The notes beneath the pieces are model-generated. The model was not told the origin of the DNA, did no database searches, and saw nothing but the letters and a program-made list of their open reading frames with translations. Both the position numbers and the translations under genes were made by a program. Positions 1 to 60,207 of a stretch of DNA of 64,000 bases are shown here, one piece after another (within the stretch, counting starts at the first letter, position 1; every line of letters starts with the position of its first letter). This stretch comes from Medicago truncatula (taxonomy: Eukaryota > Streptophyta > Magnoliopsida > Fabales > Fabaceae): contig NC_053043.1 in NCBI RefSeq assembly GCF_003473485.1, positions 15,157,001 to 15,221,000 on the forward strand. Reading direction: 5' to 3'.

Positions 1-1816
1 GATGAGATAAGGTCCGGACATAAGTTTTTAAGGTGGAGTTGGTTTTATTGGGTTTGAGTTAGACCAAACCCGAACTTTTAAGAATCTGGTGTGAGTGGTA
101 AGCAGCGAGTCTCTTAAGTATGTGGTTATGAGTTTGATTTCTAGTTCATACATATACAATTTCACTTTTTGATAGAGTAAACCTTTAAATGTGTACTCTA
201 GATCTTAGAAGGGATTAGTCTTTGTAGTCGTGTAGGTATCGAGTCCCCCAATGTTGTCATGGTTTTGATTTCTAATTCATACATATAAAAGTTCACTTTT
301 TGATGAAGTAAACCTTTAAGGAACATGTTGAATTAAAATAAATTTTGTATTGAAAAGAATTTTTTTTTAAGCTTTCAAGATATTGAATAAACAACTTTTA
401 AGATGATATTTTTAAATTTGGTTTCTTAAAATGTGTCCTAAAGACATAAGTTAGTATTTTCCAACCTTTAAATGTACTTCAGATTTTGAAAGGCATTAAT
501 TAGTCTTTATCTTTTCGCGAGAATACTCTTAGAATAAGTAATTAAGTACACTCATCGTGAAATTAGTGATGTTACATGTGGAATGCCATGAAACATGACA
601 TGGATTAGGTGTAGGGAAGGGGTGGGAGACAGGAGAAGGAGATGGAGGTATTTTTTTTTTATAACCATGTTATTGGTGCAAAGTACCAATTGACTTTTTG
701 AACAACTAATCTTTGTTGGGTGACAACCTTTAGAAGATTTCTCCTCCCAACCATGTTTTTTCTATCCACAAAGATAGAGGTAACTTGGAATCCCTAATCA
801 ACATCACATTGGATGTCATTGCACACATGGCATCATCGATCCCTAAGTCAATGGTGACGTGTATTTATGTCTGTATCATTGACACTTTTGATCAAAGACA
901 TGCTTGGTCTCTAATATTGACACGACACTGACACTTATAATTACATTCAATTAATTTTTTTTCTCAAATTATTAATTTATCACCGTTGTCAACTTATCAA
1001 TGTCGTGTTTGGGTGGACACTTCATAGATTTTTGTTTGTCATGTGAGCTTCAAACAAAAGATTGATAAAAGAGACTAACCATGAAAAAAATATCATGGTG
1101 ACCAAAGATATATTTACAGCCTTCTAGTTAATTCCAAGGGGAAAAAGCTATATTAGTGAGAAAAGACAGATGTTACAGCTAGGTAGAGGACAAGGTATAT
1201 CCTTTCAAAGTAGTGGAGCTGTCTAGTGACCTGTTTTTTACACTTTTCTTAAAAGGAAAATGTAATCTTTTGAACAACATCCAAAAGAAGATGTAAAACA
1301 AATGTAATTGACATTTTAAGTGATTTGAGCTAGTTGCATAAACTGCACGCAATGAAAGAACTTTCACCTCCTTGTCATTTTCAATATTAGTGACTCATCA
1401 TCAGCCCCACAAATTAAGCAAGTGATTGATTTTTTTTATGAAATAACCAACCTATTTTTAACTTTTTCTGAGCTTATTTATTTTCTTTAAGCTTTTGAGA
1501 TAAAATAAAGAAAATCAACTTACATAAAAGTGCTTATTGCCATAAACTCTTATGTGATAAGTTATTATTGAATAAATATTTCTTAACTAGTTTACCACAT
1601 GTACATTCAATTCAAACAAACTTCACCTCAAAAGTATCCTTCTGACTGTTGTTTGAGTTAAAGATGAAGTAACTCCATGAGGAAACAAAAAAAAAAAAAT
1701 TAAAGTAGTTGAAACAGTGATAGATTTTTATTTGCATTTTTTCCATGATCATGATTGCTTTTGTTTTCACATGTTTTGTTTAGTGAATGAGTAGTGTCTC
1801 TATCTTCATGTTACAG
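1..1816 (+). other. Part of intron 2 of the left-truncated MOSC gene
   Basis: No coding sequence is visible. The stretch resembles intron 2 of the downstream copy: about 541-660 matches about 4890-5010, and about 1400-1600 matches 5580-5595 joined to 6182-6330. It ends in the 3' splice site before 1817. This places exons 1 and 2 of this copy to the left of the window rather than deleted. Contains AT-rich tracts and a poly-T run near 650. Confidence 0.75.
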
Positions 1817-3141
1817 TGCTGAAAGCACCAGGGATGGAACCTCTCAAAGTTTGTTTGAACAAACAGTATGAAGTAGCAGATGATATTACAGTGTGGGAAT
1901 GGACTGGCTCTGCTTGGGACGAAGGAGCCGAAGCATCACAGTGGTTCTCGGATTATTTAGGAAATCCTACTAAACTGGTCCGCTTCAATACTGGTAACAT
2001 CTTTGAAACCTTAAGGGATAATATAACAGCAATAACAATGTTAAGAAGGATTTGTTACTTAGACATGTTAATGTACAAAAAATTCAATTTAACATATGCA
2101 TGTAATGCACAATGGTTCCATGAATTGTAGACACGTTGTGCATGACATAAATAACCACGATAACTCTCAAATAATGTTTCCAAATGCAGCTTCAGAAGTT
2201 AGAAAAGTAGACCCTGATTATGTCGAGGGACAGTACCAAACCTTTTTCAGCGATGGTTATCCGTTCTTAATCGCATCTCAGGTCAGTCCAGTTGCAGTTG
2301 CGAAACAAAGTCGAAACTACTTATATAAGTCCTTACTTTTTATTTGCCATTTATTACTTTCAGGAATCATTGGATGCACTAAACGAGCTTCTAGAGGAAC
2401 CGATACTTATGAATCGTTTCAGACCCAAGTATTAATTTTTTCAAGCCTGTGTCTAGTGTTTCATAGTATTTGTTACTAGTTTAGATCACGCAATTGAGAT
2501 TTTGGTGCCACGTGGTGCAGTATCCTTGTTGAAGGTTGTGAACCGTACTCTGAAGATCTATGGAGAGATTTCAAGATAAGCAGCTTCTCATTTCAGGGTG
2601 CCAAGCTGTGTTACCGTTGTAAGGTGAAAAATTCTACTTTATAATCTCCTAGATATCCATATTCAAAAAGCGAGCTGAACCAACCAGTTCAACCTATTGA
2701 ACCAGGAACCGTTCAATTGACTGGTTTGTTTGATCTCAGTTAAATTTATCTGAGAATACATGCCAATAGCATTTATCTAATGTGCATTATTGATGATGCT
2801 TATTATGGTAAGATTCCAACAATCAATCAAGAGACAGCAAAAGTTGGACCTGAACCAAATGAAACTCTCATGAAATATAGGTCTGGCCAAATCATAAGAC
2901 CAAATGATAAAAACAAAAAGAGGGTGAGACATTCATTCATCAAACTTTCAATTAAAATGTCCCTTTTGTATATTAATGTCAAGTGACATATGAAATGCTT
3001 GTGATGCAGGTCTACTTTGGTCATGATATAGTGTGGAACTGGATGGAATCTTCTGCTAAGGAGGATGGAAAAGTCCTTAAATTGGGAGATCCTGTTTATG
3101 TTATAAAAAAATTCTCTTCTCCAGCAGAAGCAGCTGCTTAA
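1817..3141 (+). CDS. MOSC-domain protein (mARC / Moco sulfurase C-terminal type), copy 1, 5' end outside window
   Basis: A molybdenum-cofactor-binding MOSC protein of the mitochondrial amidoxime reducing component (mARC) type, expected to reduce N-hydroxylated substrates using electrons from cytochrome b5 and its reductase. Six exons are readable: 1817-1993, 2190-2281, 2364-2428, 2521-2623, 2813-2923 and 3010-3141. Introns are GT-AG and phases join without a stop. The first visible exon is the end of the N-terminal beta-barrel (KAPGMEPLKVCL). The MOSC core follows, with FRPN, LVEGC, the LCxRCK motif whose second Cys is the expected Mo ligand, and the terminal LGDPVYVIKK. 226 codons are visible. 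It lacks only exons 1-2 relative to copy 2, and those should lie upstream. It differs by scattered substitutions (GCEP for GCGP, INQETA for VDQETA) and one missing codon in exon 7. No disabling mutation is seen. The reductase activity is inferred from the family. Confidence 0.87.
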
Positions 3142-4014
3142 AAGGCTATAATGACTTAAACTTTTATCAAAAATTAGTACCAGTGGCTATATTGAAATTA
3201 AGTGATTATTACATGGTTGCTGAACTTTGCTTTGAGCTGTTGCAACTTGTAGATTGTAATGCATCTATTATGCCTTGTATCCAAATAATCACATGAAAAT
3301 AAGGATTGTGCAAAAACTAAAAAATACCTTTCATTTGTTTTATATTTTCTTTTTGTTCATCGTTTTTATACTTTTTGTCCAATTATTTTACACATGCATT
3401 TAAAGATGTGTTGTCACATTTAATGAATATGATTATATTAATTAATTGATGTGACAACATATGTATTTGTAAAATAATCGTACATTGAAAGAGCATATTA
3501 ATTAAACTATTTCAAAAATAAGAGGAGAGATTTCATAAATATATATTCTTATCATAGCATTTGGAACATGTTCAACAAAAATTGAGAACAAATTTGTTGG
3601 TCAAATTACCTTTACATGTTAATCAATTTTTTTCTTAAGTTATTTAATTACAACATAATAAATTTCAGCATTTGGATGGAGTGTAGGAATTTGAAATTTT
3701 ATAGAGAACTCTAATTAAGTAATCTTCTCTGCATAAATAAATTCAATAACAAACATTAAATAGTTGGTACTTGAGTTTGGAAGGGTTAATCAGCAAGTTT
3801 TTGCGCCAAACAGATCATGTCAATATCTTATCATGCGTATGAATCGGATCCTTAGAGAGTTTGTAGAGGTGAAATATATCTAATCATTAATGTTATTGTG
3901 ATGTGTGACGTGGCTCCTAGTGAGTCAGCTATTTATTCCATTAGCATTGCAGGGATTATCCTTTTTTATGTAACAACAAAGAGAAAGAGATAGCAAGAAA
4001 GAAGAATAATATTA
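3142..4014. other. Intergenic spacer between the two MOSC copies
   Basis: No gene is seen. The first ~160 bases (3' flank of copy 1) resemble 8518-8660 after copy 2. The segment near 3660-3720 resembles 9335-9380. The duplicated unit therefore includes several hundred bases of 3' flank, and its junction lies near 3760. The rest should hold the copy 2 promoter and 5'UTR; a weak AT-rich box lies near 3929. Confidence 0.6.
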
Positions 4015-7000
4015 ATGGGTGCTGCATCATCAAGTTCAACAACATCTGAGACAGAGTCATCAACAACACCTGATGCTAAGGTTACAGGCCTTTTCATATA
4101 TCCTGTTAAGTCATGCCGTGGAATTCCTCTTTCTAATGCTCCACTCACACCTTCTGGTACCACATATATTCCTTCTTGTATTATTTATTTTTTGAAAACT
4201 TGGACCGACTAATCCGAGGGGTCCAATCCAAATGTTTACTTGATAGGATTTCGATGGGATCGACAGTGGATGGTTGTCAATTCAAAAGGGAGGGCATGCA
4301 CTATAAGAGTTGAACCAAGGTTTGCTTTGATTGATGTTGAACTACCACCTGAGGCATTTCTTCAACACTGGGAACCAACCACTGATTCCTTTATGGGTAT
4401 ATTTCATTTTTCATAAGCTCCTTCAAAACATATCATACCTTTTTATTTATTGATTTTATTTGTTTTCATATGGTAAAATACTACGGTGACATTTTATATG
4501 CTGAGGTCCGGGTTTAAACTCATAGTTTTTCACTTCTCAACATTTAGTGTGAGTTTCACTGTTAGGTCTTTATAATCAAAAAACAAAAATGATGTGATGT
4601 GTTTCGGAAAATATTCAAGTCTCGGATAGAATAAAGATAAGGTCTGAAATATGTTTATAAAGAGTGACAACCTTCCCCTTATAAGTCGGTTTTGTAAGAA
4701 TGAATTAGTCCCAATATAAAATCTTAATAGTGTGAGCTGTGACTAGTTTTGTTCCTTAAGCAAGTGGTTGTAGGTTTGATTTCTAACTCATGCATATAAA
4801 TTCACTCTTTGATAGATTAAATCTTTAAATGTATCCAGATTTGAAAGGGTTTAGTCTTCATAGTTGCGTGCAGAGAGTACTCTTGGTAGTATTGAACATC
4901 GTGAAATTAATGATGCCACTTGTGCAATGCCATGGAACATGTCATGTATTAGGGGTAGGGGCGACAAGGGAGACTGTAGGAGGAGATGAAGGTGTTTTTT
5001 TTCGTAACCAATTTATTGATGCGAAATATCCATAGGCTAGCTAGTCACTTTTAGTTAGGTCTACCTGCCCAACCACGTTTTTTCCATCTATATTTGCGCA
5101 GTCTAGTCTTTTTCTAAAGGGAAAAAACTGCAGTATATGGTGTGCTGGTATAATCACATTTGATTATAAGGTATATCCTTTCAGGGTAGGGCGGGCTATA
5201 TGGTGAGCTGGTATCTATGCTTATCATAAATGGAATGTAAACTCTTTTTTGATATCTAAGAGATTTGAGCTACTATCAAATACATCAAATGCTTGCATAA
5301 ACCGCACAGCATGATAGAAAACAACTTCCACCTCTGTATTTATCAAAACCTTCATAAATAAAAAATCATCAAAGTCAAATTTGATATAAAGCAAAATAAG
5401 TGACTCGTCAACTTCTCGTGAACAACACGAAAAACGTTGCTTGTTATATAAGAATGTAGAAGCCTTACAAGGCAGGACTAAGTGATTTATTGTTTCTGAA
5501 CTAGAAGTGTACAATACATTACAAATTAAGAAGCAAAACAAAAGTGGTAAGATATATGGATCTTATGGCATAAACATGTAAGCAAGTGTTTGATTTTTTT
5601 TTTTAATCAGCAAATATTATTAAGCAAGTATGCACAAAACCCGAAAAGGAGGAAAAAGAGTACAAGCAAGAGGGCCTTATAACAGCTGACGCCTCCACAC
5701 CAAAAGAACACTCGATAAAAAAACCCCTAAATACCGGAAACGAAACAGAACCGGTACTAACACTTACAAACCTTTTGCCACAGCACTAAACAAACGGCAA
5801 AACAGGCATTACGTACAGTCCTAAAAAACATACTAACACAGCCCGCTAAGGACAAACAGCAGCAAGCACAAAAAGAACAGGACCACTATCGCTGCTCCCT
5901 ACCTCCAAAGCACAAAAAGCTGCAACAGGACACCCACCAGCGGAGCACCAAGCAGACAGACCACAGCCAGCAAACCAAGAGCACACAGGCAGGCCGAAAA
6001 CCACAAAACCAGCAAAACTGTGATGCTTAAAAACAGAAAAACTGTCAGCAGATCCAAAAAAACTGACAGCCCACCAAAACTCATCTCAAGAGGCACTCCC
6101 GTGGACACCAACTCCACTCATAGAACATACAAGTCGGATTATTAAGTCTTCCTCCACAAGCTCCTTCACAAGTGTTTGATTGAGTTTATGAAATAGCTTA
6201 CAGCCAATCTATAACTTCTTCTGAGCTTATTTTTATAAGCTATTAAGATAAAATTATGCAAAACAACTTATGTGGAAGGGCTTATTGCTTTAAACTCTTA
6301 TGTGATAAGTTGTTTTTGAATAAATATTTAATTAAGCCATTTGCAAATGCATATTCAGTTCAAACAAGCTTGACCTCCAAAGTATCATCCCTTACTGTTT
6401 TCTGAATTAAGGATGAGACTGAGTTCGAATCCCTATCGGAAATGTATTGCTAAGTCTGCCCCCTCCCCCTAAATAAAAAAATAATAGTCCCCCTCCCCTA
6501 TTTATTTAACAAAAAACATGTGAACCCTTTGACTTGATTTACATGCTTATACTTGTGTTTTCTAGGTTATTTGCCAAGTATCCTCGTTAACACTTATGAA
6601 AAAACTTTGAGGGGAATTTGTGAAATTTTGTGTAGTATATTCAATTCCTCTCTTCTTGTTTATGGAAGCCATTGATAAATGTCTGTTATATAATGGACAT
6701 CAATGTTGTCTTTTTCCGTCCTATTTGATATCTGAAGTAGTTAGGACATGATTTTTTATATAAGTTTCTGCCTTTTATTCCGCATTCTGTGTTCATATTT
6801 CATTTTTAATTTCACAGAATCCTTCCTTCTGTTCTTAATTTTTATAAAATAGAAAAATTGCAGTAGTTAAAAGTTTAAACGCCAATAGACTTTTGAATGG
6901 CACATTCTTCATGATCATGATTGCTTTTTCTTCTTCCTTTCTTTAGTTAATGAATGGAGTTTTTTTATCTTCATGTTACAGTGTTGAAAGCACCTGGGAT

Positions 7001-8517
7001 GGAACCTCTGAAAGTTTGTTTGAACAAACAGTATGAAGTAGAAGATGATGTTACGGTGTGGGAATGGACTGGCTCTGCCTGGGACGAGGGAGCTGAAGCA
7101 TCACAGTGGTTCTCAGATTATTTAGGATATCCTGCTAAACTGGTCCGCTTCAATACTGGTAACGTCTTTGAAACCTTAAAGAATACAAAAATGATGATAA
7201 CAATGTTTAGAAGGATTTGTTACTTTTAGACACATAAATGATTGGTAAAGGACTATAACGGCTTCAAGAAAACATGAGTATTACTAGGACTAACTTGTTG
7301 CTTTTATAATAAATGTGTTTAATATGATGTGAACAAAATCAATTTAACATATGCATGTAATGCACAATGGTTCCATGAACTGCGGTTGCATTGTGCATGA
7401 TATAAATGACCACGATGACTCTCAAGTAATGTTCCAAATGCAGCTTCAGAAGTTAGAAAAGTAGACCCTGATTATGTCAAGGGACAGCACCAGACCTTTT
7501 TCAGCGATGGTTATCCGTTCTTACTCGTATCTCAGGTCAGTCAAGTAGCAGTTGGGAAATGAAGTCGAAAGTTTACTGATTGAAATCTTTACTTTTTGTT
7601 ATTTATTGCTTTCAGGATTCATTGGATTCACTAAACGAGCTTCTAGAGGAACCGATACCTATGAATCGTTTCAGACCCAAGTATTAATTTCTCCATGCCT
7701 TTTTGTCTAGTAGTAATGTAATTATATTCTTGCATAGTATAGTATTGGTTACTACTTCAGATCACGTAATTGATATTTTGGTGCCACGGGGTGCAGTATC
7801 CTTGTTGAAGGTTGTGGACCATATTCTGAAGACCTATGGAGAGATATCAAGATAAGCAGGTTTTCATTTCAAGGAGCCAAACTGTGTGGCCGTTGTAAGG
7901 TAATGAGTTCTTCTTTATAGTTTCTTACATAACATATAGCGCTCGTTCAAAGCTAGTTGTACTGGAAAAAAATTAGATCGTAGTATTTATATACAAGTTT
8001 AATCTGTAAACCGTAAGTTTGATTAATAGAAAGGAACTGCAGCTGCTTTATAGTCGGAGATATAGACATATCTGGCCAAACTTCGTTACCAACTATTGTG
8101 TGTTCATTGTTGCGTTTTTCATATATTTATTCTTTTGAACCGCAGTTGCTGTTCTAATATGAATGATGCTTATTATGGTTAGGTACCAACAGTCGATCAA
8201 GAGACAGCAATGTATGGAGATGAACCAACTAAAACTCTCATGAAAATTAGGTCTGGCGAAGTCTTACGACCAAATAGTGACAAAAACAAAAAGATGGTGA
8301 GATTAGTATTCAGTCATCAAATTCTGAATGAATTTCCCTTTGGTTTCATCGATGTCAAGCGATACATGAAATACTTGTGTTGCAGGTCTACTTTGGTCAG
8401 AATGTAGTGTGGAACTGGAATGAATCTTCTGCTAAAGGGGATGAAAAAGTTCTTAAATTGGGAGATCCTGTTTATGTTATCAAAAAAGTCTCTTCTCCAG
8501 CAGAAGCAGCTGCTTAA
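4015..8517 (+). CDS. MOSC-domain protein (mARC / Moco sulfurase C-terminal type), copy 2, complete
   Basis: Complete tandem paralogue, 324 residues in eight exons: 4015-4156, 4247-4396, 6982-7158, 7444-7535, 7616-7680, 7797-7899, 8183-8296 and 8386-8517. All introns are GT-AG and the phases (1,1,1,0,2,0,0) agree. The start is the first ATG and opens with a Ser/Thr-rich segment (MGAASSSSTTSETESS). Then comes the MOSC_N signature beginning VTGLFIYPVKSCRG, with RWDRQWMVV and the barrel end in exon 3. The MOSC domain carries FRPN, LVEGCGPYSEDLW, LCGRCK and LGDPVYVIKK. Arabidopsis relatives (At1g30910, At5g44720) have similar length and order. Expected role: Mo-dependent reduction of N-hydroxylated compounds. 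Intron 2 is 2.6 kb because a retroelement sits at 5596-6168. No subcellular signal is certain by eye. Confidence 0.92.
5596..6168 (-). mobile_element. Truncated LINE-type retroinsertion in intron 2
   Basis: A 573-bp insertion flanked by a 13-bp direct repeat (CAAGTGTTTGATT at 5583-5595 and 6169-6181). The corresponding intron of copy 1 lacks it. It begins on + with a poly-T run, meaning a 3' poly(A) tail on the minus strand. Next to the tail is a motif (AATCAGCAAATATTATTAA) nearly shared by the insertion at 29742. These features indicate target-primed retrotransposition of a 5'-truncated LINE. A 72-codon frame at 5899-6117 is probably fortuitous. Confidence 0.75.
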
Positions 8518-8884
8518 AAGGCTACAATGACACAAACTTTATCAAACATGAGTATAGTGGTTATGCTGAAATTAAGTGATAATGCATCATTCATGATGGT
8601 TGCTGAACTTTGCTTTGAGGAGTTGTAATGTAATGCATCTCTATTATGTCTTGTATATCCAAATAATCATGGAGATCAAATTTCTTGGACAAATTAAGAT
8701 AAAACGTGGCTAGAGGGATTCGATAAGGCGACTGTAAACGTAAGCTCCGTGTGTGTGGTTCCATTCAGTTCTTTGCATTCTAAAAAATGTTTTTTTTTTT
8801 TTCTTTCTTTCACTAAGAGCTTAATTTATATTGTGTTTTGTTTGCCTTCTCCTCAAAAATGTTGAGAAGACTTGTAAAAAAAAG

Positions 8885-22170: not shown

Positions 22171-25137
22171 CTAGGAAGTTGACTTCTCTGAAGAGAGCCA
22201 TTCTTGTGTTGTCGTTAAGTCGGGAAGAACAACTGCGCCGGACTTCCTCCATTCCACAGCTTCTGGTGTCTTAAATCTATCCAACAATAGTGCATGCATC
22301 CCTATGCTCTTAGCTGGCTCATAGTCTTTGCGCATGCTATCGCCAATATGCAAAGCTTCTTCAGGTGCAATATTACCAGCCCTCTCAAGTGCAATCTCAT
22401 AAATTTTTGGGTCTGGCTTCTCAACACCTTCAAGGCCGGAAAACACGCCAAAGTCCCACTCAGATCCCTGCATCATTAAACATTATAACGATCATACATT
22501 CACGTCTCACGGATATGAGTGTATAAGACTTGGCCCCTGTTTGGATAAACAATTTAAATAACCACTTATAGCATAAGCAATTATCATATACACCCTTCGG
22601 TCACTATTATAAGCAAAAATTAACATTTTAGATTCATTCATTAAATGATGTATGTGGTCTATAATAAAGACTATATACATCATTAATTGAATGAATCTAA
22701 AATGTAGATTTTTGCTTATAATAGTGACCGGAGGGTGTAAGTGCTTATGTATAAGCTTTTTCTATAACAAAAGCTAAAATGAAGTCAGAGTAATTTTACA
22801 TAAGCTATAAATTGTTTGGGAAATACTAACGAGTGCCCTTAGGGCACTCTTTAACAACCTTAAATAGTAAGCTTTTGAAAGTTTTTATAAAAATTGATGA
22901 ATTTAATGCATTGGAAATTGAACTAATTGATGAATTGAACTAATTAGATTCATTCATTAAATGATGTATGTGGTCTATAATAAAGACTATATACATCATT
23001 AATTGAATGAATCTAAAATGTAGATTTTTGCTTATAATAGTGACCGGAGGGTGTAAGTGCTTATGTATAAGCTTTTTCTATAACAAAAGCTAAAATGAAG
23101 TCAGAGTAATTTTACATAAGCTATAAATTGTTTGGGAAATACTAACGAGTGCCCTGAGGGCACTCTTTAACAACCTTAAATAGTAAGCTTTTGAAAGTTT
23201 TTATAAAAATTGATGAATTTAATGCATTGGAAATTGAACTAATTGATGAATTGAACTAATTAGATTCATTCATTAAATGATGTATGTGGTCTATAATAAA
23301 GACTATATACATCATTAATTGAATGAATCTAAAATGTAGATTTTTGCTTATAATAGTGACCGGAGGGTGTAAGTGCTTATGTATAAGCTTTTTCTATAAC
23401 AAAAGCTAAAATGAAGTCAGAGTAATTTTACATAAGCTATAAATTGTTTGGGAAATACTAACGAGTGCCCTTAGGGCACTCTTTAACAACCTTAAATAGT
23501 AAGCTTTTGAAAGTTTTTATAAAAATTGATGAATTTAATGCATTGGAAATTGAACTAATTGATGAATTGAACTAATTAGATTCATTCATTAAATGATGTA
23601 TGTGGTCTATAATAAAGACTATATACATCATTAATTGAATGAATCTAAAATGTAGATTTTTGCTTATAATAGTGACCGGAGGGTGTAAGTGCTTATGTAT
23701 AAGCTTTTTCTATAACAAAAGCTAAAATGAAGTCAGAGTAATTTTACATAAGCTATAAATTGTTTGGGAAATACTAACGAGTGCCCTTAGGGCACTCTTT
23801 AACAACCTTAAATAGTAAGCTTTTGAAAGTTTTTATAAAAATTGATGAATTTAATGCATTGGAAATTGAACTAATTGATTTTTTTAAATAAACATTTTCT
23901 TAATTAGGAATCCTTAAAGAGTGCCCTAAGGGCACTCGTTAGCAAGGCCCAAATTGTTTTCGTAAGCTATCATGGAGAGCTTATCAAAATAAGCTTAAAA
24001 CAGCTAATGAACATGTCATAAGTTGTTTCCATAAGCTCTCCCAAACAGATTCACAACTGTTTATGCTAGTAGATAAGTTCAAATAAGTCAATCCAAACAG
24101 ATCCTTAATTGTTGCGACCACATCAAATATGTACAGATGAACAATGGTGCTTGTGTTGTAAAACCTATGTGTACATTCTGTATTAACATTTCTAACGAGG
24201 TTGTGCACGAAAAGTTTCCTTGCATACACAATTTTGCACCGGCACTAGCAGATGTTTTTGTGTATGATTTTTTTCCACTTTGTAGTTAGCTATTTAAGTG
24301 GACTACATAATAATGCTAAATATTAATTTATCTTAACACATTTATAATTCTGACAGAAAACTTTAAGAAAATTGTAGGAAGTTTACCTGATTTAAACCTA
24401 AAGCTGGAAGAATCACATCTCGATATCGATACTCAGCATTGCTAACAATGCCAACTTTGAGACCCTTTCCGCGAAGCCATCTAAGAAATGGTTTGGAATC
24501 TGGAAAGACAGTATATGGCGCAGATGAACCAAAGGATGAATAGATGCGCCTGAAAATCTTTTCAAATGTCTCCTCGTCGTATTCATATCCAGCCTGCCCG
24601 GGAAACAAAATTTATCATTCATAAAATCTAGGAAATTTTCACATGAGAATGCAGGCATCATAAATCTGCAATTCATTGCTTGATTTAGCTAGCTTACAAT
24701 AAATCCGAACATAACAATAAGGGTTAAACACTTGTTGTTTTAGAGAATTTGTTGTGGTAGAAGACAAATTTATAACCGAACAAAATATGCTACCTTACCT
24801 TGTGTGCTAAAGCAAATATAACAACATACGCATCTTGATATGTAAACACCGACTGTAATGACTTTGACAACTATCTTACCCTGACAAAAGAATCTCGCAC
24901 GCAGGTTTTCCACCACACAATGTTCGGCATTTTGGCTGCAAACCCGAAACACGGATACTTCTTTGCCATGTCCTTATATGCATACTTAAAGCCCTCATGC
25001 ATACGTTTGTAGTCTGGGCATGGACGGCCGGAAGCTTTGGCTGCCATGCAATAGTAGTCACCAAGCTCCCCTTTGTAAGCCATTAGGGTGCCGGTAACAT
25101 CTATAGTGACACAGCGTAGTTTAGGCAAAATTGACAT
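22171..25137 (-). CDS. HAD-superfamily hydrolase (HDHD3-like)
   Basis: Three coding exons on minus: 24880-25137, 24387-24593 and 22171-22467, joined by GT-AG introns in phase 0, giving 253 residues. HAD motif I is CVTIDVTGTLMAY with the nucleophile Asp. Motif II is VGIVSNAE. The motif III Lys is in EKPDPKIYE, and motif IV is ALHIGDSMRKDY. The cap lies between I and II. This is the HDHD3-like plant family (Arabidopsis At2g41250 type), whose substrate is unknown. The usual second Asp of motif I (DxD) is Thr here. The first ATG is used; the frame upstream is not protein-like. Intron 2 (about 1.9 kb) is swollen by nested MITEs and a tandem array. A 5'UTR intron is inferred at 25238-26739. General phosphatase-like chemistry is inferred; the substrate is not. 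Confidence 0.9.
22591..22737. mobile_element. Stowaway-type MITE
   Basis: A 147-bp palindromic element beginning CACCCTTCGGTCACTATTAT and ending with its inverse (ATAATAGTGACCGGAGGGTG). It is flanked by TA on both sides (22589-22590 and 22738-22739), the target duplication of Tc1/mariner-derived Stowaway MITEs. It lies in intron 2 of the HAD gene, inside a larger AT-rich element with 'ctgtttggat' ends (about 22534-24112). Confidence 0.85.
22628..23880. repeat. Four-copy 316-bp tandem array in HAD intron 2
   Basis: Units start at about 22631, 22947, 23263 and 23579, exactly 316 bp apart; the last is 302 bp long before it diverges. The copies look almost identical; the one difference I noted is CCCTGAGGG instead of CCCTTAGGG in the second (near 23157). 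Each unit joins the right part of the Stowaway MITE to the left end of another MITE (motif CGAGTGCCCTTAGGGCACTC). A single matching right end of that second MITE remains at about 23919-23945. The array thus amplified a MITE-to-MITE interval. Confidence 0.93.
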
Positions 25138-33372: not shown

Positions 33373-33811
33373 GGCTTAATTACTCTTTTGGTCCCTTAAC
33401 TTATTTTTTGGTTTCGTTTTGGTCTCTTAACTATTAAAAGTTTTGTTTTGGTCCCTTAACTTACTTTTTGGTTTCGTTTTGGTCCCTTAACTATTAAAAG
33501 TTTCGTTTTGGTCCCTTAACTTATTTTTTGGTTTCGTTTTGGTCCCTTAACTCTTCCTCCGTCAACCACTTTGGTCCTTTATGTTAGGATGAATGTATTA
33601 GAGTTAAGGACCAAAACGAAATCAAAAAATAAGTTAAGTGACCAAAACGAAACCAAAAAATAAGTTAAGGGACCAAAACGAAACTTTTAATAGTTAAGGG
33701 ACCAAAACAAAACCAAAAAATAAGTTAAGGGACCAAAACAAAACTTTTAATAGTTAAGGGACCAAAACGAAACCAAAAAATAAGTTAAGGGATCAAAAGA
33801 GTAATTAAGCC
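33373..33811. mobile_element. MULE-type MITE, 439 bp
   Basis: Long terminal inverted repeats start GGCTTAATTACTCTTTTGG and end with the inverse. The 9-bp flanks TATTTTTTT (33364-33372 and 33812-33820) match, the duplication size of Mutator elements. Each arm is built from repeats of 'ggtcccttaact...tttcgttt', so nearly the whole element can fold back. Confidence 0.88.
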
Positions 33812-39951: not shown

Positions 39952-40885
39952 GTTAAATTGCATTTTTGGTTTCTTAATTAAAATTCGATATTATTTGATC
40001 CATTAACTTATCTTTGTTACACATTTTAATCCTTTCTGTTAGTTTTAAGGTCTAAATGCTCTTTTGGTCCCTTAACTATTTAATTGGTATCGCTTTGATC
40101 CCTTAACTAAAAAAAAGATTGTTTGAAGATTTTAAGTTTTTTTTAGTCTCGTTTTGGTCCTTTCTGTTAGGTTTCCGTTAGTTTTAATAAAAGACGTTAA
40201 GTGTGGACACGTGTCACTTTGTCATTGGCTCTGAGTTTTTTTTTTTTTTTTTTTAAAAAAAATTATTATTTTTTTATAAAAAAAATTATTATTTTTTTGT
40301 AAAAAATTCCCAGAACTAATGACAAGGTGACACGTGTTAACTGTGGGACACATGTCACCTTGTCATTGGCTTTGGGATTTTTTTTTTTAAAATATATATA
40401 TTTTAAAAAAATAATAATATTTTTTTGTATAAAAAAAAAACTCAGAGCCAATGGCAAGGTGACACGTGTCCAGGAGTTAATTTTTTTTTAAAACCCTAAC
40501 AGAAACCTAACAGAAGGGACCAAAATGAGACTAGAAAAAAACTTAAAATCCTCAAACAATCTTTTTTTTAGTTAAGGGACCAAAGCGATACCAATTAAAT
40601 AGTTAAGGGACCAAAAAGCATTTAAGCCTAGTTTTAATTAAAAAATGTTAGATTTTCTTCATCATCTTCTCCTCTTTTTTCTTCATATCATCTCCATCAA
40701 CAACAAGAATCCATAAAAGTTTAAGAAGAAAATGAAGAAAACCTAACGTTTTTGAATTAAAACTAACGGAAAGGACCCAAATGTGCAACAGAGAAAAGTT
40801 AAAGGACCAAAATAAATCAAATTTTAATTAAGGGACCAAATCGGTACTACCTAAATAGTTATGTGACCAAAAATGTAATTTAGCC
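39952..40885. mobile_element. Outer MULE-like MITE, split by an inner MITE
   Basis: The left end (TTAAATTGCATTTTTGGTTTC) and the inverse of the right end (GGCTAAATTACATTTTTGGTC) match over about 100 bp with gaps. Between them lies the inner element at 40049-40628. A longer direct repeat, AGTACACATAGATTTT, occurs outside both ends (39925-39940 and about 40904-40919). Confidence 0.75.
40049..40628. mobile_element. Inner MULE-type MITE, 580 bp
   Basis: Starts GGTCTAAATGCTCTTTTGG and ends with the approximate inverse (CCAAAAAGCATTTAAGCC). The 9-bp flanks TAGTTTTAA (40040-40048 and 40629-40637) match perfectly. The arms fold over most of their length, and the core has repeated 'gacacgtgt' words (G-box-like) and A/T tracts. 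Confidence 0.9.
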
Positions 40886-50762: not shown

Positions 50763-51057
50763 CTAAGGTTGTTCAAAAAACTGAAATGGTTCTAAGCACA
50801 TGCACATGTTATCACCAGTACAAATCACTGTCAGAGGAAGTGGACAATTTTCGGGATTACACTCTATTTCATCATTGCAATATAAAGCATAAGCTGCAAT
50901 TCAAAACATAATAAATAATTGAGGGATGAAATATTATGCATAAGAAAAATTGAAAGGGTTGAGTGAAAAGGCTTACTAGCGCTTACGTTGCCTACAAAAA
51001 AAAAAATAGAGAAATAAAGATGATCATAATATAAAAAGACTTAAATATTTCGGACAT
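50763..51057 (-). pseudogene. NCR (nodule-specific cysteine-rich) peptide gene copy A, frameshifted
   Basis: Two exons as in copy B: 50977-51057 (signal peptide, MSEIFKSFYIMIIFISLF) and 50763-50893 (mature part). Exon 2 is open and keeps six cysteines with spacing C-X5-C-X4-C-X8-C-X5-C-X-C, plus a longer tail (LEPFQFFEQP). Exon 1 is one base shorter than in copy B. The missing base is in an 11-base T run (minus strand, 50996-51006), which puts TAG in frame before the splice site. So either the gene is dead or the run is miscounted. Splice sites (A/GTAAGC and GCAG/CT) are conserved. NCR peptides act in bacteroids after secretion to symbiosomes; a role here is doubtful. Confidence 0.75.
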
Positions 51058-52439
51058 ATTTTTCTCCTTTTTATGTAATCAACATTTCTTGTTATTCTTA
51101 ATTTATATTGAGATTTGTTAGCACACATAAAGTTTGCATTTAAGTATTTAGTGTTGTTATTAAAGTCTTTTACATACATTAATATATTGTTTGTCCCTTT
51201 AGATCACACAAAGATCTAACATAAATGTTCTTACTAACATTTAATGTATTCAATAACCTTTCAAGATAGACATGTAATAACCTCAAAGCAATATAATAGT
51301 GTCGAATGATAACAAGGTTAATGATAACATGTTATTTTACTATAATTTTGGTAAGATTTATTTAATAAATTAATATTGTTATTTATAGCTTATTTGCATT
51401 TTACTATATTTTCCTTTTTTTTTTAAATAGGCTTAATCGCATTATTCACCCTCTAAGTTTGAAAAAGTAGCGGTTTTGATCGCTTATTAAAAAAAGGCAA
51501 AAGTGACCCCCATGTTTAGGGAAATATGCTCTTTTGATCCATTATCTTAACAAAAAGTTGCGATTATAGCCCCTTTTTTGGGACACGTGGCTTTTTTATT
51601 CTTATTTTCAATAAATGCATAGTTAATTTGTTTTTGTCTCTATTCTTATTTGTCAAAGCTCATCACTATGTAATGAGTGAGTAGTTGTCTCTTATCTTGG
51701 GATAATGGCAAGTAGTCATATGACAAACTTTCCATGATCCTCTTCGTTTCTTTTATTTTATTGTGAAAACTCATAACCCTAATTAAGACGAAGTGTTTGA
51801 GCTTGACTAATCAAGATTGATATCAGCATAAGAAGTTGAAGTTGAAGTAAAGAAAGTTGAAGTTGATTTCTAAGAAGTTGAATGATTATTATAATTTGCA
51901 GTCTTAGACAATTACTTTGTTGAAAGATAAAGATGTTCCTAGAAATATAAGACTAGACAAAGGTCTTGAAACATGAGAATAGCTTAAAGGCTTTTGGGAT
52001 GTAATGAATAATATGGTGCAATCGGTCTTACTCTTACCAACATAGAAACCATAATAATAAGGATATATTTTGGTAAGGCACACCCATTTTTATTGCAAGA
52101 GAACAAAAGATATTTTTAAGAGTTACCACATCCTTAAGTAATGATTTTTTATGACGTAGGAAAGATTATGAACTAGGGATTGTTCATTGTAATGATGAAC
52201 AACATGACTACAAGACGTTTTAATTAATTGCATATTTTCAGAACTAAAACAAATCATCAACCTTGAAGAGCAATAGCATATTCTAACTAAATACTTTGGA
52301 AACACAGATCACCTTAAGATTCACAAGTCCCTACAAATACAATACTCTTTTTATTACGACGATATATTCATACCTTGATATAAATTGCTTGTCTTCTCAA
52401 AGATTCTGACTTAATTAAGTCATTTGAGGAATCAACTTT
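51058..52439. other. NCR copy A upstream region and AT-rich spacer
   Basis: The first ~250 bases correspond to the promoter of NCR copy B (shared 'ttgtttgtccctt' near 51187 and 55976). Near 51430-51600 one end of a 'ggcttaatcgc' MULE-like MITE is recognisable without its partner. No other gene is seen. Confidence 0.45.
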
Positions 52440-55555: not shown

Positions 55556-56060
55556 CTACTGATAAATGCAGAAGCATAGAAAATCACCACCACAAATCAC
55601 TTGCAGAGGAGGTAAACATAAATGAGGATTACACGGAACATCATCATCACAATAAAAACCATAAGCTGTGATGTAAGAAATATATAGGAGTGTTAATAAT
55701 GAGGATTAAAATATTATGTAGAGGTTAAAAAAAAAAAAAAAATGAAAAGGACGAATGAAAGGGCTTACTAGCGCTAACGTTTTCTACAACAAAAAATAAT
55801 AATGAAATAAAGAAAATCATATCATAGAGAGATTTGAGGATATAAGACATATTTCTTCTCCTTTTCATGTAACAAACATTAACTTTTTTGTCAATTATAA
55901 AAATGCAAGAAAACCTTAATTTAGAAAGTTAGTGTGGTTATTAAATTCTTGTATATACATCAATGCATAGCATAGTGTTTGTCCCTTCACATTAAGATAA
56001 GCAAAATAGTTTTATAATCTTTCAAAATATCCTTTCAAGATAGATAAAGAATGGGTGAGG
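54620..56060 (-). repeat. Segmental duplication unit B (holds the intact NCR copy)
   Basis: Partner of 49430-51340, about 5 kb away in the same orientation. Shared landmarks include 'ggatgataagtatttaatatattga', 'gagtcattgagtaacgccc', the NCR exons and the upstream block ending near 56060. Confidence 0.7.
55556..55850 (-). CDS. NCR (nodule-specific cysteine-rich) peptide gene copy B, intact
   Basis: A short secreted-peptide gene with the NCR layout: exon 1 (55769-55850) encodes a signal peptide, intron of 103 bp (A/GTAAGC ... CACAG/CT), exon 2 (55556-55665) the mature peptide. Total 63 residues. The signal (MSYILKSLYDMIFFISLLF, ending NVSA) closely follows the NCR consensus. The mature part starts near Thr28 and has six cysteines spaced C-X5-C-X4-C-X8-C-X5-C-X-C, with an acidic DDD after the first. 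NCR peptides go through the nodule secretory pathway to symbiosomes, where they drive bacteroid differentiation in IRLC legumes. An in-frame ATG six codons upstream (55868) exists, but copy A has ATA there, so 55850 is preferred. Expression and nodule specificity are inferred. Confidence 0.82.
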
Positions 56061-56069
56061 CTTACGTTA

Positions 56070-58236
56070 CCCTCTCTTGTTTAGAGGGTAATTACTCTCT
56101 CATAATATCAACCAATCAAAATGTAATATACATAGGTAATATTAAATGTCAAATAAATGAGTAGATTTTTTCTAAAAATAAAAGAGTTAATCTTAATCTT
56201 TTTTTTTTTTTTGTTGAAGGAGAGTTAATCTTGATCATAAGGTAATTTTTAATACTTTTAATTTTTATTTAATTATTTTTTGAAACAGAAAATGATTTAA
56301 TCATTTTTTTTTTTATGTTAAGGTGTTCAATCTTAATTAATTTACACTACAAGACTTATAACAAATAAAATTTTACATCAAATTTCTTTCATCAGGATGT
56401 CCTTAAATTCATCATTTACATTCATAAAATTTCTTCTATTCCAGAACCCCGAACGTGAGAACAAAAACATCTCTTTCATTCAAATTTATTCTTTCATATT
56501 GATCAATTCTTGTTTCTTTTTCATTCTTCTTCCCATTTTGATTGTTCAATTTTGTCGTTTCAAACTGCCGCAGTTTCCAATTATAGTGAGAATTGTTGTT
56601 GTTTCTAGAACCGCGTCAGGTATCGTGACTTTTTTTTTTATTTAAGCAGCCAACCTAATAAAATCTGTTAACACGCATAGACCGGTCTCACTATCAGCAA
56701 AAGCCTTTAAGTCCAAACAAAAGAACAGAAGCCTCATCACATAACCATTTCAGCATCAACCAAAAAAATGCTAGCAAACTCCCACAACATCACAGCGGCA
56801 ACATCTGCTAGCAACCCTCAATGTACAACGGATAACTTACTCAATTGTTATAATTAACTACCTCATAACCAAGAAAAATCAAATCAAAAAGAAAAATCAA
56901 GTCACCATACTTGACACGGTACTGAAAATAAAGGCAATTATCACGATATTTGAAATCAAACGAACGACGACGATTCTCACGAAAATTGAAAAATGTGGCA
57001 ATTGGGAACGACAAAATTGAACAATTAAAATGGGAAGAAGAAATTCTATGAATATAACTGATAAATTTAAGGACATTCAGATGAAAGAAATTTGATGTGA
57101 AATTTTAATTGTTCTAAGCCAGTCATGTAGTGTAAATTAATTAAGATTGAACACTTAAATATAATTAAGGCAATAATACATTATGGGTCCTTTATCTTAT
57201 TTATTTGTAACACTTTGGTCCTTTATCTTTATTTTTTCATGTTTAGAGTCTTTATCTCTCTTAAAAGCACATATACATCTTTTTTCGCATTTTTTATTTT
57301 TTATTAAAAAATACATAATTTTATTTTTAAAAATATATTTTATTAAAACTGAAAAAAAAAAATCCAAAAATATGATGAAGATGTTCATCATCTTCATCTT
57401 CTTCCTTTGAATCTTCATTATCTTCTTTAAATAAATAAAAAATTCTGCTAAAATATATCTCCAAATATCGTGAATTAATCTTATATTCACCTCAAATCTT
57501 CTTTTAAACAAAAAAATCAAAACCTTAATTTCACAAATGTTGCAAGGCGGATGGTGGAGGCTTAGTCACTGGCGGAAGGGTTAGGCTTTACGAAAGTTAA
57601 GATTGTTATGAAAACAACAAAATTGATGTGCAAAGTTGCTCTCAATTTTGGGGTTATTTTTATGCCGGACGCGTGACAATTTATATAACTAAATCTTTTT
57701 TTTTGTGATGAAACTAGATCTCTTTCTCTATAGAGTTTTGATTTTTGTGTTTAAAAGAAGATTTGAGGTGAATATAACATTAATTCATGATATTTGAAGA
57801 TATATTTGTGTAGAAATTTTTTTGATTCAATGAAGATGATGAAGATTCAAAGGAAGAAGATGAAGATGATGAACATCTTCATCATATTTCTGGATTTGTT
57901 TCATTTTTAATAAAAATATATTTTAAAAAATAAAATTATGTATTTTTTTTAATAAAAAAAATGAGAAAAATGATGTATATGTGCTTTTATAAGAGATAAA
58001 AGACCTAAACGAAAAAAAATAAAGATAAAGGATCCAAGTGTAACAAATAAATAAGATAAAGGACCTCTAATGTAATCAAGTCTATAATTAAATAAAAATT
58101 AAAAGTATTAAAAGTTACCTTATGATTATAATTGATTCTTTTTTTAGAAAAAAAATTGACTCATTTATGACATTTAATGTTGTCAATATATATTACATTT
58201 TGATTGGTTGATATCATGATAGGGTAATCTAAAAAA
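56070..58236. mobile_element. Large fold-back (inverted-repeat) element with a nested MITE
   Basis: Left arm landmarks (TATCAACCAATCAAAATGTAA near 56107, TACTTTTAATTTTTATTTAA near 56253, GTTCAATCTTAATTAATTTA near 56325, and the 56390-56560 block) recur inverted and in reverse order at 58203, 58090, 57140 and 57080-56990. About 300 bp near 56640-56940 form the unpaired centre. The right arm is split by the MITE at 57169-58082. No transposase. It begins about 200 bp upstream of NCR copy B. Confidence 0.8.
57169..58082. mobile_element. MULE-type MITE nested in the fold-back element, 914 bp
   Basis: Perfect 9-bp duplication TATAATTAA (57160-57168 and 58083-58091). Ends GGCAATAATACATTATGGGTCC and (inverted) GACTTGATTACATTAGAGGTCC, followed by long mirrored arms with 'ggtcctttatcttatttatttgt'. 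Near the centre GAAGATGATGAA-type repeats mirror each other. Open frames here (57183-57520) come from the palindrome and are not genes. Confidence 0.88.
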
Positions 58237-60207
58237 AAACTAAAGGAACCACATAAATGACTATAATAATGTTGAATAATTACGAGATAAGTTGTAGGAA
58301 TAACGAACCAATGAGATGAAAATATATTCATGAAAAAAATTCATCAGAATTCCTTTAACTTAATTCAATGTTTCAAATAGTTCATTTATATGTTTTTTTT
58401 TTTTTTGTGTGTCAAATTAGTTCTTTATTTTTAAAATTTCAACAATATTGTATTAAACTTCATTTTTTAACCATTAAAAAGGTAAATTATATTTACACTT
58501 CACCAAATAACATCTAAATTAAATCATACTTACCGTAAAATTTCTAACTAATCGAAATAACATAATACTTTTAAGTTTTTATATAATATACTATGACATC
58601 ATGCATAATGTTAAAATATTATTTATGGTATATATCATTAGATGTTCATGTACATAACCAATATGTCACAAAAGTTGACTAAGTAATAAAAAGAATGAAA
58701 CTTAGATCAACATTGTAATTTTGTTGGCCACAACACAAATAGTCTTTAATTTTTTAGCCATATTGTTTCTTCTTTGCATCCAGTAACAAAATAATAATAA
58801 TTGATCAGTTCATACAATAAAAAAATGCTACTTTTTCTTCAAATAAATAGGGTTTAGCACTTGGTCAGTTATAAAAAAAAGCCTTCTTAAATTAGACTAG
58901 ATATTAAATGTCTCTTAAATAAGCCAATGTGTTAATGTGTTGATTAATCTATGACATTTTGGTGGGCATCGAAGATTAGATGCAAAAATGTTATTCGATG
59001 GTGTAGTTGGGACAAATTGGCTATGATAAAGGTGTGGGGAGGGATGGTATTTTGGCATATCTATGTTTTTTTTTTAATACAAAGCTAAAATTAAACAACA
59101 GCAAAAAGAAAAGAAACAAATTACATTTTAGAAAAGATAGTTTTGGCCGCGTCAATCCATAGGAGATTCCGAAGACCCTCCGACAGTGATGCATGATGGC
59201 AAAAGTCAATATGCAAAGATGATGAGTACTTGGTTAAGAGTGCTTATCTCATTTGTACAAATATCCCTCATTGATTATAATTGAATGGAGAGTTGAAAGG
59301 GATTAAAATAATTTGTGCATAATTTATCACTAAAATTTAAGATTTTATGTGGTGTTTAGAGATAAATTGTCTTACGAATCGGCAAAGACTTAGAAGTAAA
59401 GAAGTATAGTGCGTGACAAACTAAGTAAAGTGACAAAATAAATCAACGTTAACATACGGCCTGTTTGGATTAGCTTATTTTAAGGCTTATGTAAAACAAC
59501 TTATGAAAATAAATATGCTTTTATGTATTATTTATAATCTTGTTAATGAAGTTTATGAAAAAACAATTTAAGAAGGTACAATTTCCGTTAATGAGAACTT
59601 ATGAATTAAGATAAAAACTTATTTATTTTCATAAGCTCTTTTTCATAAGCTCAAAATAAGCTCAATCCAATAGTTATAGAGTCTTCCAGCTAGCTTCAAG
59701 TTAATCCACATTATGATTATCTTTTTACAACCTGCATGTGTGAAATTTTTTTCTAAAAATCATTATTTATTTTTTATATTCTCAAAAAAATCTGAAAAAA
59801 ATTGCATTAGCTTTATTTGATTTTTAAAATTTTACGGTGGTATTTTATTAAAATCCCACATTCCACTCCTTTATCGAGCTTTATTTTATTTTTGTAGTGG
59901 AATTTTGTGAAAGGGATTCTAATGTATGTTTATATTTAAGTATATTTTGGATTCTATAATCTAAACATAACTAAATTGTGTTTGAATTATAGAATCCGAA
60001 ACTCAAGAACATGGTTTTATAAAAACATATAACACACGAGAAATGGATATGAAGTAAAAACTAATAGTCAACATGTTTGGCAAAAAACAGAGCTATCCTT
60101 GAAAAAAAAAAAAAAAAAACTCTTGTAGAGACTATATTAAACAATTCAACCTCAAATTAATAATTCTTAGTGAGTAGATCAAATCTATAAAGTTTCATAA
60201 AATTTTA
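58237..60207. other. Intergenic, AT-rich, one small MITE at 59462-59673
   Basis: No gene. The words 'ctgtttggattagcttatttt' at 59461 and 'aaaataagctcaatcca' near 59653 are inverted ends of a ~210-bp MITE of the 'cataagctt' type; related fragments occur in MOSC and HAD introns. Confidence 0.5.

Follow-up and report, generated by a model that had tools for sequence, protein, structure and literature searches.

A putative anionic NCR gene with a broken tandem paralogue and an orphan promoter block among foldback elements of Medicago truncatula

The minus strand of a 64,000-nucleotide stretch of the Medicago truncatula genome (hereafter the window) carries a small two-exon gene, designated gene A. 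Exon 1 (55850-55769, 82 nt, with its ATG at 55850) encodes a putative signal peptide, MSYILKSLYDMIFFISLLFFVVENVSA, and a hydrophobic core and a V-S-A context are seen directly in the sequence of the N-terminus. The intron (55768-55666, minus strand, 103 nt, GTAAGC...ACATCACAG) has GT-AG borders, lies in phase 1 and is placed just 3' of the presumed signal peptide. Exon 2 (55665-55556, minus strand, 110 nt including the stop codon) encodes the mature part with the pattern C-X5-C-X4-C-X7-C-X5-C-X-C. Splicing of the minus strand yields a product of 63 residues, MSYILKSLYDMIFFISLLFFVVENVSATYGFYCDDDVPCNPHLCLPPLQVICGGDFLCFCIYQ, consisting of the signal and the six-Cys part; it thereby reproduced the strand, both exons, the 55769/55665 junction, the frame and the 63-aa product that a first-pass annotation of this DNA had put forward. 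The Cys residues occupy positions 33, 39, 44, 52, 58, and 60, corresponding to a spacing of X5-X4-X7-X5-X1. The first-pass annotation had read X8 between Cys3 and Cys4, which is a miscount, since residues 44 and 52 leave X7. Its remark that the spacing is off the commonest pattern of nodule-specific cysteine-rich (NCR) peptides is weakened because it rests partly on this miscounted gap, but the X5 given for Cys4 and Cys5 was correct and stands. The product contains a DDD run, one His and neither Lys nor Arg. For the mature part we computed a pI of 4.05 and a charge of -4.57 at pH 7, so that the peptide had rightly been called anionic. Gene A has an intact frame, intact splice sites and its full set of six Cys.

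A second copy, paralogue B, was located via promoter motifs (see below) on the same strand, with the two start codons 4.8 kb apart. Its exon 1 (51057-50977, ATG at 51057) begins like that of gene A, then shifts frame within a T-run and runs into a stop; this frame break may be either a true pseudogene lesion or a homopolymer assembly slip. The following intron (50976-50894, 83 nt, GT-AG) has the same donor context as the intron of gene A (GCGCTA/GTAAGC, with the slash at the exon border), and exon 2 (50893-50763), encoding YALYCNDEIECNPENCPLPLTVICTGDNMCMCLEPFQFFEQP, has six Cys in the spacing of gene A and a longer C-terminal tail. The homology between the two loci extends over 56044-55276 and 51270-50507 with 66.8% identity, spanning the upstream region, the intron position and the 3' flank, and continues in a short segment (55278-55218 and 50287-50226) and a longer one (55132-54604 and 49949-49406). 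This alignment suggests that the pair arose by tandem duplication long ago. Counted up to Cys6, the mature parts share 17 of 32 residues, and every one of the six Cys is among those shared, an outcome with a chance of 0.014 under random placement of the identities. In the signal exon, whose first 16 codons were compared, changes per site are far commoner at silent (pS 0.81) than at replacement positions (pN 0.18), with an estimated seven of either kind. In exon 2, pN/pS is 0.31/0.28 with a dN/dS of 1.14. Being based on 16 and 32 codons, respectively, these figures are too few to exclude relaxed selection. The usual NCR pattern is a conserved signal and Cys frame combined with a fast-changing mature part. 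A review of the family likewise speaks of two similar regions in NCR genes (PMC7230169). The two loci are alike at 70% of positions in the mature exon, 77% in exon 1, 78% in the intron, 76% in the 5' region and 78% in the 3' flank. The coding parts thus show no more conservation than introns and flanks, which fits the fast evolution of NCR genes, but also an absence of constraint.

Five consensus motifs of 41–50 bp have been described for NCR promoters, and reportedly none of them occurs in the 1,000-bp upstream regions of 33,131 annotated Medicago genes that are not NCRs (Nallu et al., 2013; PMC3613412). The scores of these motifs in the window were judged against a 2-Mb null. Upstream of gene A, motif 2 is found at 56013-56053 on the minus strand, -203 to -163 from the ATG, with 32 of 41 positions matching and 14.0 bits. 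This is the fourth best match to the motif in the window and lies under the null maximum of 18.1 bits; its per-site p is 1e-6, and about 0.13 matches of this quality are expected per window by chance. Motif 1 is degenerate at gene A, ranking 369 when scored ungapped and falling outside the best six when an insertion is allowed. At paralogue B both motifs surpass their null maxima (18.1 and 12.0 bits, respectively): motif 2 (51239-51279, minus strand, -222 to -182) with 18.8 bits and motif 1 (51174-51214, minus strand, -157 to -117) with 15.9 bits. No clear match to motifs 4, 5, or 3 was detected close upstream of gene A or at paralogue B.

These three motifs form an orphan block at 58917-58783 on the minus strand, where they stand in the published order 4-5-3 and stop 22 nt short of an ATG at 58761. 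Motif 4 reaches 26.0 bits with 35 of 41 positions (null maximum 18.3) and motif 5 reaches 19.0 bits (null maximum 18.4); motif 3, at 12.9 bits against a null maximum of 16.7, is not significant singly. Motif 4 is situated at -156 to -116 from the ATG and in this respect resembles the AHL-binding stretch in the promoter of M. truncatula NCR169, reported at -157 to -121 (PMC9946822). Unlike at NCR169, however, the search for spliced six-Cys or four-Cys models detected nothing 3' of the block, its single find in the window being gene A, and the frame from the ATG at 58761 comprises 19 codons only. The block is probably what remains of the 5' part of a third NCR gene. Another reading, which we regard as improbable, is that gene A and paralogue B represent an NCR subset equipped with motifs 2-1 and without the AHL-binding motif 4, the 4-5-3 block standing alone 2.9 kb upstream of gene A. 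If this were true, the block might be a shuffled module, and NCR promoters would be built from separable modules moved by foldback transposons.

The space between the orphan block and gene A is occupied by nested inverted-repeat (foldback/TIR) elements at 56091-58228, whose outer arms (56091-56183 and 58136-58228) are imperfect and enclose inner foldbacks at about 56300-57177 and 57177-58074. Inspection of the flanks of the element by eye revealed no clear target-site duplication. The start codon of gene A lies about 240 nt downstream of the inverted-repeat element. The surroundings had been characterized as a gene-poor transposon region, a fair description given that 44.2-64 kb contains one stop-to-stop ORF of at least 120 aa, and this ORF sits inside a foldback element. 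At 41.4-44.1 kb there is a decayed LINE-like element with an endonuclease domain scoring just under the cut-off (24.4 versus 24.5 bits) and a clear zf-RVT domain; two of the eight ORFs scanned in this region gave matches, the remaining six none. Two ordinary plant genes, matched by Pfam, lie elsewhere in the window, one for a PPR protein at 11.4-13.5 kb and one for an amino-acid permease at 17.6-19.3 kb. Further repeats in the window include four tandem copies at 22617-23864 (spaced at 316 bp, with 98% similarity over 300 nt), a direct duplication in pieces at 1482-3164 and 6230-8540 (78–93% identity, about 5 kb apart), and near-perfect foldbacks at 33373-33811 and 40062-40616, whose arms are 97–98% complementary and have a GGACCAAAACGAAAC-type repeat base. 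According to the review cited above, NCR genes often occur in small clusters, many of them with transposons close by (PMC7230169), and the setting of gene A fits this picture.

Since both exons of gene A are tiny, a chance open reading pattern has to be considered. A scan for an ATG followed by a hydrophobic exon, a GT-AG intron and a six-Cys exon recovered exactly one spliced signal plus six-Cys model in the window, namely gene A, and none in the null consisting of 600 first-order Markov windows and the reversed window. In a smaller earlier run the six-Cys model was found in 0 of 15 null windows, and a looser four-Cys model in one of these 15 and not in the real window. Without splicing, the window shows two six-Cys patterns, where random windows average 0.012; judging by their spacing, these two should be exon 2 of gene A and exon 2 of paralogue B. 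With all 600 null windows empty, all six Cys kept in paralogue B and a curated family matching the product, a chance origin retains a next to negligible probability.

This family is Nodulin_late (PF07127), which matches residues 1–53 of the gene A product with 32.2 bits and is its sole Pfam match up to an E-value of 1. The first-pass annotation had proposed a comparison with a family profile, and the score obtained lies above the curated cut-off of 30.4 bits by a small margin of 1.8 bits. The signal exon by itself scored 16.8 bits, under the cut-off, and the mature exon by itself, whether of gene A or of paralogue B, gave no Pfam match. None of nine shuffled controls passed the cut-off. Seven of these had the mature part shuffled, four fully and three with the Cys kept in place (15.1, 18.2, 24.7, 12.7, 28.8, 20.8, and 24.9 bits), the best value of 28.8 bits belonging to a shuffle that kept the Cys in place; of the two controls with a shuffled signal, one had no match and one scored 15.0 bits. 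The margin is modest, and the signal and mature halves are both needed for it.

The architecture of gene A agrees with that of NCR genes in further respects. It has two exons, the first of which codes for a predicted signal peptide, and its product contains six Cys, where NCR peptides have four or six at conserved positions. Its exons and intron (82, 110, and 103 nt, respectively) fall inside the ranges given for pea NCR genes (exon 1 45–138, intron 29–4672, exon 2 63–396 bp; PMC9515463). The same source puts the share of anionic NCRs at 41% in M. truncatula A17 and at 43, 47, and 36% in three pea lines. The Cys spacing, which was compared with NCR13 only, is identical to the X5-X4-X7-X4-X1 reported for this chickpea peptide (PMC11637438) except that the gap from Cys4 to Cys5 is one residue longer.

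No convincing match to a solved structure was obtained for the peptide by sequence or by fold, fold searches with so small a chain being uninformative. The PDB sequence search returned weak, non-significant similarities to Defensin-2 (E 0.22) and Lc-def (E 1.1). A two-exon structure with a signal and a cysteine-rich part, as seen in gene A, is common to many plant defensin-like genes. Gene A might on these grounds encode a defensin-like secreted peptide with another role, for instance in seed, flower, or root defence, instead of a nodule NCR. Plant defensins resemble its product in being small, cysteine-rich and secreted (as predicted for gene A), but they are described as cationic peptides with eight Cys (PMC7230169), whereas the gene A product is anionic and has six. 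As Nodulin_late is moreover the only Pfam family matched up to E 1, and both gene A and paralogue B are preceded by a motif said to occur in NCR promoters only, we consider a defensin-like role very unlikely. The first-pass identification as an NCR gene gains support from the Pfam match, the intron position, the Cys spacing, promoter motif 2 and the tandem paralogue, and we are highly confident that gene A belongs to the NCR family. The NCR paralogue and the promoter motifs also speak for an NCR-bearing (IRLC) legume as the host. With the six-Cys group of the NCR family (PF07127) gene A shares the predicted signal peptide, the intron between signal and mature part, the six Cys, motif 2, the clustered position near transposons and the anionic character; it differs in that motifs 1, 4, 5, and 3 are not clear at this intact copy.

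This difference bears on whether gene A is still active. It could be an NCR gene that died recently or is silent, its frame intact and its promoter incomplete, and yield little or no product. Consistent with this, motif 2 alone is clear at gene A, motif 1 being degenerate and the other three not found; the foldback element begins about 240 nt from the ATG, the sister copy has a broken exon 1, and the coding parts of the two copies are no better conserved than their introns and flanks. On the other hand, the frame, the splice sites and the six Cys are undamaged, and paralogue B too has motifs 2 and 1 only, so that the lack of 4-5-3 may be ancestral. Transposons are, furthermore, described as lying close to many NCR genes (PMC7230169). 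We regard a silent gene as rather unlikely, though it is the alternative that carries most weight, and think it likely that gene A is an intact, ordinary anionic six-Cys NCR gene that is expressed and has a working product. The best reading of the locus as a whole is a small decaying NCR cluster, in which the intact gene A, paralogue B with its disrupted signal exon and what is left of a third gene's promoter lie among foldback transposons.

As an active NCR gene, gene A would be transcribed in infected nodule cells, and the signal peptide would direct its product to the ER for subsequent delivery to the symbiosome. Cleavage after VSA would release an anionic peptide of 36 residues with a pI of about 4 and a charge of about -4.6 at pH 7. 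The mature peptide could form as many as three disulfides, the likeliest arrangement being Cys1-4, 2-5, and 3-6. This pairing would correspond to one folding form of NCR13, the strongly antifungal one, for which C1-C4, C2-C5, and C3-C6 have been reported (PMC11637438). An AlphaFold model of the mature part, based on a two-row alignment (pLDDT 86, pTM 0.50), predicts a C-terminal beta-hairpin, and the NMR structure of NCR13 is described as having one antiparallel sheet in that part (PMC11637438). NCR13 is, however, highly cationic (+8) and antifungal (PMC11637438), whereas the gene A peptide is devoid of Lys and Arg. Anionic NCRs are reported not to be highly toxic to rhizobia and have been hypothesized to bind and attenuate cationic NCRs (PMC9515463). 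The gene A peptide would probably not kill bacteria directly, but contribute to the fine adjustment of bacteroid differentiation, perhaps by counterbalancing cationic NCRs.

The present analysis corrects the Cys spacing given in the first-pass reading of the locus and extends that reading by the broken tandem copy, the evidence from promoter motifs and the orphan promoter. Gene A is very probably an ordinary member of a known family with hundreds of members, whose peptides serve legumes in controlling the nitrogen-fixing bacteria of their root nodules. The NCR family of M. truncatula has been put at about 700 symbiosis peptides (PMC10673856), to which gene A, if expressed, would add one more anionic member. 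Of 1170 Medicago predictions made with SPADA, 125 were reported as unannotated and 77 of those were judged real (PMC3924332); gene A may illustrate how such small genes escape annotation. With one intact gene, one broken gene and one orphan promoter, the cluster is an example of how NCR genes arise and are lost in the vicinity of transposons.
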